IMG/VR virus record: IMGVR_UViG_3300020446_000051
Span: 1 to 30,711 of that record
Source of the DNA: a virus
Reading direction: 5' to 3' (one strand)
Length of the DNA stretch: 30,711 nt
Under the pieces are notes generated by a model, which saw nothing but the letters and a program-made list of their open reading frames with translations, was not told the DNA's origin and made no database searches. The position numbers and the translations under genes were made by a program. Below are positions 14,391 to 20,023 of this stretch, piece after piece. How positions within the stretch are numbered: position 1 is the first letter of the stretch; each line of letters begins with the position of its first letter.

Positions 14391-15716
14391 ATGCAAGTAA
14401 GTCTTGACTATACGGCTCGTGAATGGCAGCGTCAATGTCATATAAACAAAAAAAGGTTTAGTGTTTACGCTCTACATAGACGTTCTGGTAAAACTGAACT
14501 CGCAATTATGGAGCTAATAGACAAAGCCATGAAGACAAACAAAGAACTAGCTATGTTTGTTTATGTTGCACCCTTTTTACGTCAAGCAAAAGCTATCGCA
14601 TGGGCTAGATTAAAGCAGAAAATAGAACCATTAAGACAAAGATCAGCTATAGAAATAAACGAAGGTGAATTATCTATAAAATTTAAACATAATGGTGCAA
14701 TTATTAGGCTATTTGGTGGTGATAATCCTGATGCTATGCGAGGTTTGCGTCTTGATGGCATAGTCATGGATGAGGTTGCACAACTTAAAAACGAGCTATG
14801 GACTGACATAGTACAACCAGCACTCTCTGACCGTCTTGGGTGGTCTATATTCATCGGTACTCCATCAGGAATTAACTTATTCTCTGAGTTGTATTACAAG
14901 GCAATGAATGAGGAAGATTGGACGGCAGCCAGATATACCGTGTTTGATACTGATTCCCTACATCCAAATGAGGTGACTCGTCTCAAGCGAGACATGAGTG
15001 AGACTTCCTTTGCTAGGGAGTACCTATGCGATTTCTCAGCACAGGGGGATGATCAACTTATTGCATTAGCAGATACCGAAGATGCAGCTAAACGTGTATA
15101 TCAAGCTGACCATGTGAAGTTGTCACCTATAGTCCTAGGCATTGACCCTGCAAGATTTGGGGATGATCGTTCTGTAGTATTTCGTAGGCAGGGGAGACAA
15201 GCATTTAAGCCTGTGGTCTATCGTGGGATAGATAATATGGAACTAGCAACAAGAGTTGCCAACCTGATAGAAGAACATGATCCAGACGCGGTTTTCTGTG
15301 ATGCAGGGGCAGGGAGTGGAGTTATCGATAGATTAAGGCAGTTATCGTATGACGTTATTGAGATTCCATTTGGTGGTAAGGCTACTAAACCTGATCAATA
15401 CATCAACCGCAGAAGTGAGATGTGGTGGTTAATGAAACAATGGGTAGAAGAAGGTGGGGCAATACCTAACGACATAGCCCTTAAACAAGAGTTAGCAACA
15501 CCCATTTATTGGTATGACAATGTGGGTAGACGAGTGCTTGAGTCTAAGGATCAAATCAAGAAGAGATTACAGGGTGCAGGTTCTCCAGATTTAGCTGATG
15601 CACTAGCCCTCACATTTGCCCTCCCAGTAGCCAAGAAACAACCAGAGGACATATATATCAAAAGACGTAAACAAGCCACACAAAAGACCGATTATGACCC
15701 TTACAAAGCACTTTAA
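14391..15716 (+). CDS. terL: Terminase large subunit
   Basis: A 441-residue DNA-packaging motor. Walker A is HRRSGKT at residues 29-35, Walker B is IVMDE at 124-128, and the coupling motif region IGTPSG lies near 155-160. The C-terminal RNase H-like nuclease shows GIDPARFGDD (D252), VFCDAGAGSG (D304) and SPDLADALAL (D400 and D403). All expected ATPase and nuclease residues are present. It hydrolyses ATP to translocate DNA through the portal and cuts the concatemer. The gene is on the strand opposite to the rest of the head genes and to the small subunit. The leader has no Shine-Dalgarno at normal spacing. Confidence 0.95.
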   Translation: MQVSLDYTAREWQRQCHINKKRFSVYALHRRSGKTELAIMELIDKAMKTNKELAMFVYVAPFLRQAKAIAWARLKQKIEPLRQRSAIEINEGELSIKFKHNGAIIRLFGGDNPDAMRGLRLDGIVMDEVAQLKNELWTDIVQPALSDRLGWSIFIGTPSGINLFSELYYKAMNEEDWTAARYTVFDTDSLHPNEVTRLKRDMSETSFAREYLCDFSAQGDDQLIALADTEDAAKRVYQADHVKLSPIVLGIDPARFGDDRSVVFRRQGRQAFKPVVYRGIDNMELATRVANLIEEHDPDAVFCDAGAGSGVIDRLRQLSYDVIEIPFGGKATKPDQYINRRSEMWWLMKQWVEEGGAIPNDIALKQELATPIYWYDNVGRRVLESKDQIKKRLQGAGSPDLADALALTFALPVAKKQPEDIYIKRRKQATQKTDYDPYKAL

Positions 15717-16260
15717 ATGCATAGCCGCAGGGCTAGACGTAGAACCATTGCTTCAATTGTTGGATGCCAAGCCTGAGTTATGGAAGGAGATTGAAACAAG
15801 ACAGCGATTTAGTGGAAGTCCGCACAAAAACACCGAGACTATTTACGTTCGAGGTGCGTTAAAAATGAGTCCTTATTACGTTCTTTGGCATACCGGAGCA
15901 TATGACTACCCCAGTATGGAATACCTCAAGTCAGCATTAGTACCATTGCTACAGCCCATTCTCAAGGAGTTAGGAGTTGAAGAAATGGGAAGGGTACTAA
16001 TAGTTAACTTGAAAGCCACTAAACAAGTAGAAAGACATATTGACCAAGGAACATATGCTAACCATTACGAGAGATTTCATCTTGTACTTAGAAGTAATAA
16101 ACATTGTTTTTTATCAAGCGGTAACTGGATACTAAACCTTCAAGAAGGTGAGGTTTGGTGGATTAACAATAAAGTCCTTCATTCTGCCGAGAATAACTCT
16201 ACAGAGGACGATAGATGGCACATTATCTTTGACTGCGTTCCTACTGTGGAACTCCAGTAA
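15694..16260 (+). CDS. Aspartyl/asparaginyl beta-hydroxylase-like 2OG-Fe(II) oxygenase
   Basis: A 188-residue protein with the iron-binding HxD pair H115-x-D117 in a VERHIDQGTY context and a distal histidine H163 in VWWINNKVLHSAEN. R174 in the DDRWHIIFD segment is placed to bind 2-oxoglutarate. Spacing and flanks fit the double-stranded beta-helix fold of the Asp/Asn beta-hydroxylase family. The substrate is unknown; related enzymes hydroxylate protein side chains, and other phage oxygenases modify amino acids or nucleobases. It overlaps the end of terL by 23 bases, so it is made with the packaging motor, and it overlaps the small-terminase gene tail to tail by 20 bases. Confidence 0.82.
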   Translation: MTLTKHFKCIAAGLDVEPLLQLLDAKPELWKEIETRQRFSGSPHKNTETIYVRGALKMSPYYVLWHTGAYDYPSMEYLKSALVPLLQPILKELGVEEMGRVLIVNLKATKQVERHIDQGTYANHYERFHLVLRSNKHCFLSSGNWILNLQEGEVWWINNKVLHSAENNSTEDDRWHIIFDCVPTVELQ

Positions 16261-16708
16261 CTACATTTACATTAATATCACCTTTAGTTTCAATTCCTAT
16301 TAACTTCTCTGAATATTCCTGTGGATACCATTTAGCCAACAACCTAAGACGTAAATCTGCCCTTGATCTCATCCAATTAACATGAGCATTATCCATTCTT
16401 GCATTCTCTCCCTCACCGATCATAGGAGGAGGAGTATCAACAAGTGCTAAAGCTTCTTCCGCAATTGCTCTAGCTCCTAAGAATCTGCTCGTATGTACGA
16501 AGCGTGACATGAACTCTTTATCCTTATCTAACCATCGATACAAAGTTCTATAAGAAGGCATTCCTTTCTGCCTACAAAATGATCTCAAAGTACCACCGTT
16601 TGCGACATATTCTAAAACCTGCTCAACGATTACAGGATCAGGCTTTTTAATTGGCCTACCTAACTTTGATGGTTTTGAATCTGTCAGGATAATCTGCTCT
16701 TCGCTCAT
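16241..16708 (-). CDS. terS: Terminase small subunit-like DNA-binding protein
   Basis: A 155-residue protein with an N-terminal helix-turn-helix (about residues 25-62: VEQVLEYVANGGTLRSFCRQ, then SYRTLYRWLDKDKEF), a helical oligomerisation region (ARAIAEEALALVD), and VNWMRSRADLRLRLLAKWYP ahead of a Val/Asn-rich tail. This organisation is typical of small terminase subunits of the Sf6/P22-like group, which recognise the packaging site and recruit the large subunit. The start overlaps the upstream gene by 53 bases with no clear ribosome site, so translational coupling is likely. Unusually, it is encoded opposite terL. Confidence 0.82.
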   Translation of the reverse strand: MSEEQIILTDSKPSKLGRPIKKPDPVIVEQVLEYVANGGTLRSFCRQKGMPSYRTLYRWLDKDKEFMSRFVHTSRFLGARAIAEEALALVDTPPPMIGEGENARMDNAHVNWMRSRADLRLRLLAKWYPQEYSEKLIGIETKGDINVNVVTGVPQ

Positions 16709-16919
16709 AACGACATATCTTGGCTATGGTATGTTTATTCAAATTAAAAATTTTAGATAAAGTAGAATATCCTATACCGTCCTCCTCGTGTAAATCACGC
16801 AAGGCATCAACAATAACATCACTAATTCTAGGATTATGGTTATGGTGATAGGAATTTATTCTATAACCTTTACTGTTAACCCCAATTACTAAGGTTTTAA
16901 CTGGAGTTGAAGCAGTCAT
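16656..16919 (-). CDS. Small helix-turn-helix protein
   Basis: An 87-residue protein with a basic, His-rich N-terminal part (INSYHHNHNPRISD) and a helix-turn-helix in the second half (LRDLHEEDGIGYSTLSKIFN followed by LNKHTIAKICRYERR). This type of motif is seen in recombinase-like and homeodomain-like DNA-binding regions. It is the first gene after a good minus-strand promoter at 16944-16972 and is followed by the small terminase. It could be a transcription factor for late genes or a packaging-site binding partner. No Shine-Dalgarno precedes the ATG. Confidence 0.68.
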   Translation of the reverse strand: MTASTPVKTLVIGVNSKGYRINSYHHNHNPRISDVIVDALRDLHEEDGIGYSTLSKIFNLNKHTIAKICRYERRADYPDRFKTIKVR

Positions 16920-16943
16920 AAAAAAATGAATAAAATTAAATAA

Positions 16944-16972
16944 AATATAAGAAATTTTTAGGTAAATTGCAA
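16944..16972 (-). promoter_or_regulatory. Minus-strand sigma70-type promoter for the HTH/terS genes
   Basis: On the minus strand a -35 TTGCAA (16972-16967) is separated by 17 bases from a -10 TATATT (16949-16944). The start would lie near 16937, about 18 bases before the ATG at 16919. The promoter is divergent from the early promoter at 16990. A perfect palindrome ATATTT-G-AAATAT (16972-16984) lies between the two -35 boxes and could be an operator. Confidence 0.6.
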
Positions 16973-16989
16973 TATTTGAAATATATTAC

Positions 16990-17073
16990 TTGACATCTAT
17001 AGCACTTAATGCTACACATATATATAGGTCGCTAGTCGAGCGATCCGTCACTTACTAATTTTATTAACAACAC
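16990..17073 (+). promoter_or_regulatory. Early promoter cassette 1 (promoter, dyad operator, 5' hairpin, leader box)
   Basis: A -35 TTGACA (16990-16995) lies 17 bases before an extended -10, TG-C-TACACA (17013-17018). A dyad TAGCA-N5-TGCTA (17000-17014) fills the spacer. The predicted start is near 17025 and an inverted repeat GGTCGCT/AGCGATCC (17027-17033, 17039-17046) would fold at the very 5' end of the RNA. It is followed by CTTACTAATTTTATTAACAA (17051-17070) and the ATG at 17074. The same elements recur in the same order at 19359-19451. Confidence 0.65.
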
Positions 17074-17370
17074 ATGGAAACATTCACACCTAGCGAAATT
17101 CAGCAGCAAGCCAGTTTATGGTTTATGACTCATGCAGGTACTTATTCAAGATTACTCAATCGTACCAAGGCTGAAGGCAAAAGAGCATATGTAGTATTTT
17201 GCGATTTAATGCTTGGAGTTGATTACAGAGATGTTAAAGGCAAAGCAAACAAGGATGCATTTATCAATGCTTTTATGTCTAGCTCTACAGTATCTGCAAT
17301 TACTGCACAGCAACTAGTAGCAGGTTCTGTTGAATACAAAGAAACCGTTGACTCATACTTAGGAGAATAA
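17074..17370 (+). CDS. Early protein of unknown function, 98 residues
   Basis: First gene behind early promoter cassette 1. The protein starts METFTPSEIQQQASLWFMTH and is a mix of helices with no signal peptide or membrane segment; I do not recognise a family. There is no Shine-Dalgarno in front of the ATG; the conserved AT-rich leader box takes its place. Being promoter-proximal and probably the earliest and most strongly made product, it is a reasonable candidate for a host-takeover protein, but nothing in the sequence proves that. Confidence 0.7.
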   Translation: METFTPSEIQQQASLWFMTHAGTYSRLLNRTKAEGKRAYVVFCDLMLGVDYRDVKGKANKDAFINAFMSSSTVSAITAQQLVAGSVEYKETVDSYLGE

Positions 17371-17373
17371 ATT

Positions 17374-17544
17374 ATGAGATTTACGTTTATTTATTTGTTG
17401 GCAATGACAGCACTTATAGGATTTTTTGGAACATCTGCAAGTTTAAGAAAATCTACACAATATGATTGCGAAAAATTAGGCTCACAATCGCTCGCTTGTA
17501 AGCAACTACAAAAAACAAATTTAATTAATGAGGTTTTAAACTAA
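17374..17544 (+). CDS. Small membrane or secreted protein, 56 residues
   Basis: The frame begins MRFTFIYLLAMTALIGFFGT, one hydrophobic segment of about 17 residues near the N-terminus, followed by a polar tail with two cysteines. It could be a signal anchor or a cleaved signal peptide. An AGGAGA site lies seven bases upstream, within the end of the previous gene, and the stop overlaps the next start as TAATG. No family recognised. Confidence 0.65.
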   Translation: MRFTFIYLLAMTALIGFFGTSASLRKSTQYDCEKLGSQSLACKQLQKTNLINEVLN

Positions 17545-17714
17545 TGACTAAAGCAGAAGCAATTAAACAATTTAGATCGTTTTATAAATGGTGGGGTTAT
17601 CGCAGGGGCGATGTAATAGCCAAGCGTACAAAATGGAACGATTACACAGATGCCCTTTGCAAAGAGGGTTTAATCACACTTAAACAATATGAAAACTGGG
17701 GGCAACCATTCTAA
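17544..17714 (+). CDS. Small basic early protein, 56 residues
   Basis: A 56-residue protein with many aromatic and basic residues (FRSFYKWWGYRRGDVIAKRT, then WNDYTDALCKEGLITLKQYE). It is compact, with no membrane segment. Start and stop both overlap neighbouring genes as TAATG, so it is translationally coupled in the early operon. Function unknown; the aromatic/basic surface could bind nucleic acid. Confidence 0.65.
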   Translation: MTKAEAIKQFRSFYKWWGYRRGDVIAKRTKWNDYTDALCKEGLITLKQYENWGQPF

Positions 17715-18178
17715 TGACAACAATTACAGAACAAAAATTTACCTGCAACGTCAATTATCAATTTGACATCAGTTTAGATGACTTAAGATGTTTATTTTGC
17801 ACTATGGGTCAGGGTGCTAACTACTGGGCTACTGAAGTTACAGTAGGAAACATCATAGAAGAAGGAGATGAAGACGGCAATGTTTGGTATAAAGATGACC
17901 AAGACTATCAATTTGAAGGTTGCTGTGCATGGCTGATGGATTTAACTCTAGACAGTCCTATAACAGTAAAAGATATGGAAGAAGACACACATTTATTTAA
18001 AGTTCAAGATGTTTTAACCACCATAGAAAAAATTATTTGTGGTAAAACTGATTTAAATAAACATGATTGCTGTGAAATATTTGAAGCCTTTGCGACTAAC
18101 AACCTTGGTCTTATTGATGCTGGAATAGCAGATTCAATATTGCAGATTATGACCTATGACTCACTTGTATACGGATAA
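17714..18178 (+). CDS. Acidic early protein of unknown function, 154 residues
   Basis: A strongly acidic 154-residue protein with several cysteines (KFTCNVNYQFDISLDDLRCL, later CCAWLMDL and DCCEIFEAF). The first part resembles a beta-rich domain, the second is helical. No catalytic motif or known family is recognised. It is the largest gene of the first early operon. Small acidic early phage proteins sometimes mimic DNA or inhibit host enzymes, but here that is only a possibility. Confidence 0.68.
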   Translation: MTTITEQKFTCNVNYQFDISLDDLRCLFCTMGQGANYWATEVTVGNIIEEGDEDGNVWYKDDQDYQFEGCCAWLMDLTLDSPITVKDMEEDTHLFKVQDVLTTIEKIICGKTDLNKHDCCEIFEAFATNNLGLIDAGIADSILQIMTYDSLVYG

Positions 18179-18183
18179 AAATT

Positions 18184-18318
18184 ATGAACAGATCAAAACT
18201 ATACGAGTGGTTACTTGATAACGACTGCCCTTGGGATTTTGAAACTGACGAGGGCGAAGCTGACTTCTTAGGTACTTGCACTCTTGTATTTTCTGAAAAA
18301 CAAAAGGAGGACGAGTAA
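18184..18318 (+). CDS. Small acidic early protein, 44 residues
   Basis: Begins MNRSKLYEWLLDNDCPWDFE and continues with a run of Asp/Glu (TDEGEADFLG), ending in EKQKEDE. It has two cysteines and no membrane segment. The stop overlaps the next start as TAATG. Function unknown. Confidence 0.6.
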   Translation: MNRSKLYEWLLDNDCPWDFETDEGEADFLGTCTLVFSEKQKEDE

Positions 18319-18536
18319 TGGACAACAAACAATTTATTGAAGAAGTCTATGAGATTGCTTTTGGAGACAATGCAATCAATCGTAAATTTTCCCATGAGGA
18401 GGTAATAGAACAACTTAAAGAAATCAATAAAGATTCTGTTAAATGGGATCAAGTAAATGATTACGATAAGGAATTCTATGAACAACAATTGAGAGATGAA
18501 GCTGCTGATCACTTTGATCAATGTCCGCAAAGTTAG
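18318..18536 (+). CDS. Acidic helical early protein, 72 residues
   Basis: Last gene of the first early operon, with an AGGAGG ribosome site inside the previous gene. The protein is helical and acidic (FSHEEVIEQLKEINKD, then YDKEFYEQQLRDEAADHFDQ). No family recognised. Its TAG stop codon lies in the left arm of the terminator hairpin. Confidence 0.65.
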   Translation: MDNKQFIEEVYEIAFGDNAINRKFSHEEVIEQLKEINKDSVKWDQVNDYDKEFYEQQLRDEAADHFDQCPQS

Positions 18537-18560
18537 AGGGTGTAACAACCCTCTTTTTTT
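18535..18560 (+). terminator. Strong intrinsic terminator of early operon 1
   Basis: Perfect seven-base stem AGAGGGT (18535-18541) with ACCCTCT (18548-18554), six-base loop, followed by seven T residues. It overlaps the stop codon of the last operon gene and directly precedes the regulator promoter, insulating the two units. Confidence 0.88.
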
Positions 18561-18561
18561 A

Positions 18562-18596
18562 TTGCATTAACGTTGCATTTATGACAATATAGAACT
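18562..18596 (+). promoter_or_regulatory. Regulator promoter with two TTGCATT repeats
   Basis: A -35 TTGCAT (18562-18567), 17-base spacer and -10 CAATAT (18585-18590) place the start of transcription at about 18597, the A of the regulator ATG, so the mRNA is probably leaderless. Two direct copies of TTGCATT (18562-18568 and 18573-18579), 11 bases apart, cover the -35 and spacer and are good autoregulatory operator candidates. Confidence 0.6.
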
Positions 18597-18815
18597 ATGG
18601 AACAAACTGCAAAAACACCAGTACAATTAGCCATTGCTTCGTTTGGTGGTGTCCGAGCATTAGCTAGAGCTATTCATCGTGACCCTGCATCTGTATCTAA
18701 ATGGCAAAAAGGAGATGGCACTATACCTACATCTATTCAACGTAAACTGCTTGAAACAGCATGGGATAGAGGTATACAGCTATCAGCCCATGAACTTATT
18801 TTTGGTAGAGAATGA
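18597..18815 (+). CDS. Small helix-turn-helix regulator (Cro/YdaS-like)
   Basis: A 72-residue protein consisting almost wholly of one helix-turn-helix domain: LAIASFGGVRALARAIHRDP, then ASVSKWQKG and a C-terminal helix with IPTSIQRKLLETA and LSAHELIFG. This matches small Cro/YdaS-like phage regulators that bind as dimers to short dyads. It has its own promoter between the two early operons, whose promoters share a dyad operator, so it is the natural candidate for the repressor or switch protein acting on both. Its promoter carries direct TTGCATT repeats, suggesting autoregulation. No Shine-Dalgarno and almost no leader are present, as for lambda cI made from PRM. Confidence 0.8.
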   Translation: MEQTAKTPVQLAIASFGGVRALARAIHRDPASVSKWQKGDGTIPTSIQRKLLETAWDRGIQLSAHELIFGRE

Positions 18816-19189
18816 ATCAAAAAAAATTAGAAAAATTACAAAAATTGTATGCATTGGCAGCAAACAATCCAAATAAAAATGAAGCAATAGTAGCTGCACA
18901 TAAATTTATAAATGCAATTAAAAAAGATGGATTACACGTTACGTTGTCAGAACGCCCTCAACCAACGCAACAACAAATTGATCAAGCATTACAAGCAAAC
19001 TATCAGAAAGGCTTTACAGAGGGCAGCCAACACGCATATGACCAAGGTTATCAGGCAGGGTATGAAAAAGGGATTGAAAGTATTGGTTTAGCTAACCAAA
19101 ATCAACCAACAAGAGAATATATACCACACACAACAGCTAGTTTGTATATAAATAATAGTTCTAGCTCTTCTACTATACGAGTAGGATAA
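18812..19189 (+). CDS. DUF2786-like protein with Tyr/Gly repeats
   Basis: A 125-residue protein whose first 40 residues (KLEKLQKLYALAANNPNKNE followed by AIVAAHKFINA) look like the short DUF2786 helical domain. The middle has a repeat-like YxxGFxxG / YDQGYQAGYEKG pattern, and the C-terminus is Ser-rich and probably disordered. ATG overlaps the regulator stop as ATGA, so the two are co-translated and it may act with the regulator. DUF2786 proteins have no established activity that I know of. Confidence 0.65.
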   Translation: MNQKKLEKLQKLYALAANNPNKNEAIVAAHKFINAIKKDGLHVTLSERPQPTQQQIDQALQANYQKGFTEGSQHAYDQGYQAGYEKGIESIGLANQNQPTREYIPHTTASLYINNSSSSSTIRVG

Positions 19190-19350
19190 TGAATTGTTAT
19201 TGGTGTAATGAACAATTGGTTGTTGGAGGTGATGTTGATATTGACGAGGGAATGATTGGTTACCCTGACTTCTCAGTATTGACCAATGCATCATGCCCAG
19301 TATGCAAGACAGAAGTAGAAATCTGGAAAAGAAGAGATGCCTTCGATTAA
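19189..19350 (+). CDS. Small zinc-ribbon protein, 53 residues
   Basis: The frame begins MNCYWCNEQLVVGGDVDIDE and has a second pair in ASCPVCKTEVEIW, giving CxxC (C3, C6) and CxxC near residues 42-45, the arrangement of a single zinc ribbon. The start overlaps the previous stop as TAATG. It probably binds zinc and nucleic acid or protein. The partner is unknown. It is the last gene of the regulator transcript. Confidence 0.7.
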   Translation: MNCYWCNEQLVVGGDVDIDEGMIGYPDFSVLTNASCPVCKTEVEIWKRRDAFD

Positions 19351-19358
19351 TTGATTAT

Positions 19359-19451
19359 TTGCCATATGTTGCATTATGTGCTACACTGGTTTACGAGCAG
19401 ATAACTGCTCAAATTTGATCCCTTACAAATTTTTATTTACAAAATCAAATC
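19359..19451 (+). promoter_or_regulatory. Early promoter cassette 2 (promoter, dyad operator, 5' hairpin, leader box)
   Basis: A -35 TTGCCA (19359-19364), 17-base spacer and extended -10 TG-C-TACACT (19382-19387). The dyad TTGCA-N5-TGCTA (19369-19383) sits in exactly the same register as in cassette 1. A perfect hairpin GAGCAG-ATAA-CTGCTC (19395-19410) begins at the predicted +1. It is followed by GATCC (19417-19421) and an AT-rich leader box (19422-19442) nearly identical to that of cassette 1, then the ATG at 19452. No Shine-Dalgarno is present. Confidence 0.65.
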
Positions 19452-19880
19452 ATGAAAGCAGGTCACTATTACGCATGGGCTAAAAAGTCTTTTGCAATCC
19501 TTGATAAGTTTCATACAAGAATGTATGAGCTATGGGAAGGTTCAAACGAAACCGAGCATTGGGATGATGATCTCAATTGTAGACATCACGATTTAGAAAG
19601 AGCATTGGAAGATGACAACTATGATCGTACTGGCTATTGGAGACAAGGCTATTTCTATAGGCTTGAAGCAACAGACAGTTCTATAAAAGCTTGTGATCCA
19701 CACATTAAAAAATTACAGGCTGAAATAAAAGAGTTGCAAAGACAGGTCAAGCAAACCAAAGCTAGAAAGGAAAGTCTTAAAAAGCATAGACTTGAGATGA
19801 TTAAAGACTTTGACATGGATTACAAAACCATTGAGCAAAGGTTAAAAACTACATATCCAGAATATGCGGAGGGTGCATGA
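19452..19880 (+). CDS. Coiled-coil early protein, 142 residues
   Basis: First gene of the replication/recombination operon. The N-terminal 75 residues are rich in aromatic and acidic residues (MKAGHYYAWAKKSFAILDKF, then HDLERALEDDNYDRTGYW). The C-terminal part is a charged coiled coil (IKKLQAEIKELQRQVKQTKA). No family recognised. Like the other promoter-proximal genes it lacks a Shine-Dalgarno and depends on the leader box. Confidence 0.68.
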   Translation: MKAGHYYAWAKKSFAILDKFHTRMYELWEGSNETEHWDDDLNCRHHDLERALEDDNYDRTGYWRQGYFYRLEATDSSIKACDPHIKKLQAEIKELQRQVKQTKARKESLKKHRLEMIKDFDMDYKTIEQRLKTTYPEYAEGA

Positions 19881-20023
19881 CAGATACCCAGAAACTTAAA
19901 AGGTTGGCCTTCTTGGCTAACCTTTCTTATTCCGATCACACTTCCGAGGATTGGGAAGAAGAACTCAGACTCGAATGTGAATTACAAGACCACCCTCAGT
20001 ACAAATCCTATTTAGACCAATGA
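19877..20023 (+). CDS. Small acidic protein, 48 residues
   Basis: Begins MTDTQKLKRLAFLANLSYSD and continues with an acidic stretch (DWEEELRLECELQDHP). The start overlaps the previous stop as ATGA and the stop overlaps the next start. Small, soluble and unknown; position suggests an accessory replication role at most. Confidence 0.6.
   Translation: MTDTQKLKRLAFLANLSYSDHTSEDWEEELRLECELQDHPQYKSYLDQ

Follow-up and report, generated by a model that had tools for sequence, protein, structure and literature searches.

The 30,711-base IMG/VR record of a marine phage analysed here (the window) has two early operons, A and B, that start from a duplicated cassette of promoter, operator dyad and leader, and in both leaders the last element before the first gene is a covarying hairpin (hairpin II) that takes the place of a Shine-Dalgarno sequence. 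We consider it fairly probable (about 0.62) that hairpin II is a new cis-acting, start-associated RNA element working at translation initiation, that the hairpin preceding it (hairpin I) protects the mRNA 5' end, and that one repressor acts on three dyads. In the mechanism we favour, a single 72-residue Cro-like repressor would bind the same dyad at operon A, at operon B and at its own promoter, and the mRNA of each early operon would begin with two adjacent hairpins, I and then II. Hairpin I, put at the 5' end by the predicted transcription start, would guard against 5'-end-dependent decay; hairpin II would occupy the Shine-Dalgarno region, end at or include the AUG, and determine, by itself or by way of a factor, how translation of the downstream gene is initiated. 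An action at this step is proposed because of the position of hairpin II, the absence of a Shine-Dalgarno sequence and the covariation, and hairpin II may be a site for a repressor or for an activator, or an initiator in its own right.

Starts without a Shine-Dalgarno sequence are usually found in locally unstructured mRNA; here the opposite is seen, with a covarying hairpin in the Shine-Dalgarno place ahead of some 30 kinds of unrelated genes. Hairpin II is a short element with known base pairs that is not represented in Rfam and is present in about 100 marine phage contigs. If the proposal holds, these phages may run a common translational switch, and hairpin II would explain why the leader is retained when the genes heading the early operons are swapped.

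Structure and covariation of hairpin II

The original prediction, made from the window's sequence, described a duplicated promoter-operator-hairpin-leader cassette, and both copies do carry a -35 element, a 17-base spacer, an extended -10 element, a dyad, a hairpin and a leader box (Table 1). The AT-rich leader box is present in both copies as described, but it is in fact a covarying second hairpin ending at the start codon: the two positions at which the boxes differ (17056 and 17066 in A, 19427 and 19438 in B) are partners in a single base pair, pair 5-16. GATCC, which had been listed as a further shared element, belongs to the hairpin I 3' arm in A and to the hairpin II 5' arm in B, and is not an element common to the two copies.

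Hairpin II is ordered as an outer arm, NNC opposite one 3' base, UUAC, a 4-base-pair stem, a loop of 2-6 nucleotides, the returning stem and ACAA. It was compared across about 100 marine IMG/VR phage contigs related to the window; these are related and partly overlapping, so that counts do not equal independent events. The inner stem occurs as UAAU/AUUA, AAAU/AUUU, UAUU/AAUA, AAUU/AAUU and UAAA/UUUA, and where UUAC/ACAA becomes UAAC/ACUA both sides switch together. Alleles of the outer arm share one register (AUUUGAU/AUCAAAU, UUCGU/ACGAA, UGCUU/AAGCA, AUUGUUU/AAACAAU and UUGU/ACAA), apart from UGUC/GACA, which is slightly shifted. While the surrounding helices vary by compensatory substitution, the inner UNAC/ACNA motif with its two A.C mismatches is near-constant.

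MAFFT alignments were made from sequence only for three sets, with 28, 25 and 66 distinct members. In these, 88% of cells were paired for the structure named above, against 34-53% when it was slid, and the covariation score was 0.234 (A3 and A4) or 0.358 (A5), compared with at most 0.081 for the slid structure and with no equal in 500 shuffles. Cells in which both partners had changed numbered 36, 29 and 133; after sliding, the highest counts were 7, 12 and 52. The clearest test came from scans of the collection, which involved no structure model and left both letters free to be paired or unpaired. Of 72 distinct contexts, 71 had a complementary pair 5-16, and the remaining one lacks promoter and ATG alike; pair 7-14 was complementary in all 22 contexts that have both. 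A mismatch of the opposite kind occurred once, away from any promoter or start. Taken as a comparison of sequences, the RNA structure of hairpin II is well supported.

Copies A and B are the only ones in the window. The covariance model matches them at 17042-17076 with 43.9 bits and at 19413-19448 with 48.0 bits; the former sequence is in the training set and a near-identical one to the latter is as well. In a search of 16700-19700 with the 4227 covariance models of Rfam 15, nothing relevant was matched at E values up to 5. CCCUUACAAA was also considered as a lambda boxA-like sequence, a reading abandoned on account of the compensatory variation of its bases.

Within helices that vary, the A.C and C.A mismatches stay almost constant and look like a protein-recognition feature, which is the reason for reading a common trans-factor into them. 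That such a factor, phage-encoded or recruited, reads UNAC/ACNA in a Shine-Dalgarno-independent switch, by which the early gene set would be turned on or off together, is a tentative proposal.

Association with start codons

The covariance model identified 109 distinct hairpin II elements in the fetched loci, and every one has an ATG-started open reading frame (ORF) at -1 to +10 nt from the box end. In the window, hairpin II of leader A abuts the ATG at 17074 and that of leader B ends 1 nt upstream of the ATG at 19452; the 3' arm contains the start codon in 16 distinct leaders. None of the 109 has a Shine-Dalgarno-like 4-mer, compared with 37% of ORFs of at least 120 residues, a figure counted from the upstream-most ATG that underestimates the true rate. 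Most internal genes of the window likewise have AAGGAG-type sites, and neither cassette-headed gene has one. Together with the covariation, these observations support the idea of post-transcriptional control in the original prediction.

Genes downstream of the 109 elements fall into 30 families. Unrelated genes replace the first gene of operon A in some relatives and that of operon B in most. Such swapping behind a retained leader would suit an element that acts as DNA, either as an inverted repeat read by a second dyad-binding protein or as a homology arm for exchanging early genes, and the phage does encode a RecE-type exonuclease and RecT. The promoter/stem-loop cassettes (PeSLs) of T4-like phages, proposed for shuffling, are comparable in that a portable promoter and stem-loop precede shuffled early genes (Arbiol 2010 and Comeau 2014, as cited in PMC4503421); going by the 2014 title they are promoter-terminator motifs, whereas the hairpins here are found within the leader and at the start codon. 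A protein site, however, requires fixed contact letters, and here both arms change together; homology arms require sequence identity, not covariation; and the fixed distance to the ATG is left unexplained by either. We regard a role as DNA as quite unlikely.

Twenty-three of the elements fell outside the promoter regular expression: four are near-misses that do have a promoter (including window copy A), two are doubtful (L150 and L151), and about 17 follow another gene closely and lack any promoter-like match. Because these roughly 17 distinct elements stand between genes without a promoter, hairpin II is independent of the promoter, and on this comparison the recurring unit is hairpin II, not the promoter cassette. 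Some of the promoter-less elements are preceded by a strong intergenic hairpin and others by none; in L018 (7300-7376), L060, L094, L097 and L120, an intergenic GCCCCC-UUCG-GGGGGC hairpin lies directly upstream. At L108 2340-2421, the homologue of a 48-residue ORF (window 19877-20023) stops after 18 codons, with its stop codon within the 5' arm of hairpin II, and the coding part can form a hairpin too.

SAS/ESAS elements resemble hairpin II in placement: they recur directly upstream of start codons in many phage genes that are unrelated to each other. An inverted repeat lies upstream of about half of them, and a role in translation has been proposed, with function unproven. SAS, however, is a fixed 13-bp sequence, GGGATAGGAGCCC, with a Shine-Dalgarno-like core and partial complementarity to 16S rRNA. 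Hairpin II has no such fixed sequence: its letters drift while the pairing is kept, it has no Shine-Dalgarno sequence, and the element itself is the hairpin. The operators of T4 RegA, gp32 and gp43 (PMC3014915) are also RNA sites at or beside the AUG of early mRNAs, and hairpin II agrees with this type in being an RNA structure at or over an early start codon. RegA sites differ in having no clear sequence or structure. Those of gp32 and gp43 combine an upstream fold with sequence across the ribosome binding site and are single-gene autoregulatory sites.

Several points weigh against hairpin II as a translational element. The model used to collect the 109 elements has the structure built in, and the window leaders were represented in its training set. 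Inside, the hairpin is AU-only and thermodynamically weak: RNAalifold found no consensus structure in the mixed alignment A3, where the AU stems are weak, the copy at L034 4914 folds no better than shuffles, and the minimum-energy fold of window copy B is a competing one. Copy A has just two outer pairs, and the outer arm is absent in a minority of leaders (the L018, L066 and L119 types). As many contigs are close relatives, the independent compensatory events number perhaps 8-12, below the cell counts. The weakness of the hairpin and the very AU-rich box would also suit an open enhancer site of the ribosomal-protein-S1 type for starts without a Shine-Dalgarno sequence, in which the hairpin is incidental; such starts tend toward locally unstructured mRNA (PMC3121790), with which this explanation agrees. 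Compensatory changes in both the inner and the outer helix, exceptionless in context in the unbiased scans, are unexpected if pairing is irrelevant, and we consider an unstructured enhancer unlikely.

Hairpin I and the 5' end

Of 62 distinct leaders of the relatives, 57 have a stem of 5 bp or more that starts 6-10 nt past the -10 element; in 300 dinucleotide shuffles such leaders numbered 5 on average and never more than 15. In the other five leaders this stem is interrupted by a bulge. The families of stems include GAAGGT/ACCTTC, GAGCAG/CTGCTC, GAGCAA/TTGCTC, AGAGGG/CCCTCT, ATCGGT/ACCGAT and GGTCGCT/AGCGATC. As these differ in sequence, it is the place and the fold that are conserved and not the letters, which bears out the earlier suggestion that structure rather than sequence is selected. 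The search for compensatory changes in related phages proposed with that suggestion had two outcomes, covariation in hairpin II and a kept place with changing sequence in hairpin I. Literature, as cited in PMC3997798, is compatible with a 5'-end protector at such a position, and hairpin I most likely shields the mRNA from 5'-end-dependent decay. Hairpin I is missing from 18 distinct A-type leaders, which are about 28 nt long and contain only hairpin II.

Two leader hairpins downstream of two early promoters are also the arrangement of HK022 putL/putR (PMC9378689), where the leader RNA attaches to RNA polymerase during elongation and takes it past early terminators. Both early operons of the window have two stem-loops close behind the promoter, as putL does, and a conserved terminator closes operon A. 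The put sites, however, act on RNA polymerase and are unattached to start codons. The position of hairpin II is tied to start codons and not to early promoters, and it also occurs without a promoter. Both early put leaders have two stem-loops in about 70 nt; many leaders here have two in about 57 nt, and the 18 A-type leaders have one, hairpin I being dispensable. Antitermination of this kind is accordingly very unlikely, and initiation of translation is retained as the proposed step for hairpin II.

Promoters, operators and the regulator

The identical register of the dyads relative to the -35 and -10 elements, noted in the original prediction, was confirmed for promoters A and B, and the same arrangement is seen in 45 distinct promoters of relatives. 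From these the operator consensus is TGTWG-N9-CWACA, centred on the spacer and extending into the -10 element. Exact matches to TWGCANNNNNTGCWA in the window are confined to the dyads of promoters A and B. Instead of the two operators first proposed there are three, the third being on the promoter of the regulator gene (Table 1). A broad operator scan (TGTWGC-N7-GCWAYA, three mismatches) was dropped as too loose.

In the window 6 nt separate the end of the CAATAT -10 element of the regulator promoter from the ATG, and among 41 genomes examined the distance is 6-7 nt in 40; for this reason the regulator mRNA is probably leaderless. Leaderless lambda cI and paaR2 mRNAs (PMC8630535) are similar in that the predicted start here coincides with the ATG, and different in that the leaderless state is predicted here from the -10-to-ATG distance alone. 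In a distant group (L041-L043 and L045), the regulator is 71-73% identical and its own promoter carries TTGA-N7-TCAA, not TTGC-N7-GCAA, which fits an operator that changed together with its regulator.

The gene between the two cassettes had been proposed to encode the repressor. Its 72-residue product matches Pfam P22_Cro with E = 2.9e-6, short of the curated cut-off, and Cro/XPH1 among PDB sequences with E of about 1e-3. The AlphaFold2 model (pLDDT 88) has Xfaso 1 Cro and N15 Cro as its best Foldseek matches, with a probability of 1.00 and an E of only 0.02. The Pfam and AlphaFold2/Foldseek results agree on a Cro/helix-turn-helix fold, and with the dyad present at three promoters the protein is likely the repressor of all three.

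Closely downstream of the regulator gene, in nearly all relatives, lies a gene for a 53-residue Cys-x2-Cys protein (19189-19350 in the window); the flanking genes vary. This protein is a possible candidate for the trans-factor.

Table 1. Positions of the described features in the window
Feature	Position	Strand	Sequence or description
Operon A promoter	16990-17018	+	-35 TTGACA 16990-16995, 17-nt spacer, extended TGC-TACACA, -10 17013-17018
Operator dyad of promoter A	core 17000-17014	+	TAGCACTTAATGCTA
Hairpin I, leader A	17027-17045	+	GGUCGCU-AGUCG-AGCGAUC; from folding; starts 9 nt past -10
Hairpin II, leader A	17047-17073	+	GU-CAC-UUAC-UAAU-UUU-AUUA-ACAA-C-AC; covariance-model match, covariation in relatives
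Leader box A	17052-17070	+	TTACTAATTTTATTAACAA
Operon A first gene	17074-17370	+	98 residues, predicted protein without assigned function; no Shine-Dalgarno
Intrinsic terminator	18536-18561	+	GAGGGUGUAACAACCCUC-U7; end of operon A, upstream of regulator; kept in about 40 relatives
Regulator promoter	18562-18599	+	TTGCAT-17-CAATAT; third operator TTGCATTTATGACAA at 18573-18587
Cro-like regulator	18597-18815	+	72 residues; Pfam, PDB, AlphaFold2/Foldseek
Operon B promoter	19359-19387	+	-35 TTGCCA 19359-19364, 17-nt spacer, extended TGC-TACACT, -10 19382-19387
Operator dyad of promoter B	core 19369-19383	+	TTGCATTATGTGCTA
Hairpin I, leader B	19395-19410	+	GAGCAG-AUAA-CUGCUC; from folding; starts 8 nt past -10
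Hairpin II, leader B	19413-19450	+	AUUUGAU-CCC-UUAC-AAAU-UUUU-AUUU-ACAA-A-AUCAAAU; covariance-model match, covariation
Leader box B	19423-19442	+	TTACAAATTTTTATTTACAA
Operon B first gene	19452-19880	+	142 residues, predicted protein without assigned function; no Shine-Dalgarno

Relatives of the window

The gene layout is of the tailed-phage type, with terminase, the Cro-like regulator, a YqaJ/RecE-type exonuclease, RecT, an O-like/primosomal protein, a DnaC-like loader and RusA. Comparison of the DNA with named phages revealed no close one; the sole similarity is to cyanophage MED4-117 (81 bp, 87.7%, window 17637-17717) and lies inside a 56-residue ORF. No relative came up when genome contigs were searched with a regulator profile. 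At the protein level, the closest regulators come from Limnohabitans phage DC33, from phage zth2-2 and from environmental podovirus genomes. Hairpin II was absent from the stretches examined of DC33, zth2-2, MW202640 and MW202722, which have a related regulator, and of MED4-117. The record of DC33 (L125, PQ492659.1) gives Inoviridae, yet its genome is 39 kb and has genes related to those for the exonuclease and the Cro-like regulator in these tailed-type phages. In the window, a gene with an aspartyl/asparaginyl beta-hydroxylase domain (15694-16260) adjoins the terminase genes.

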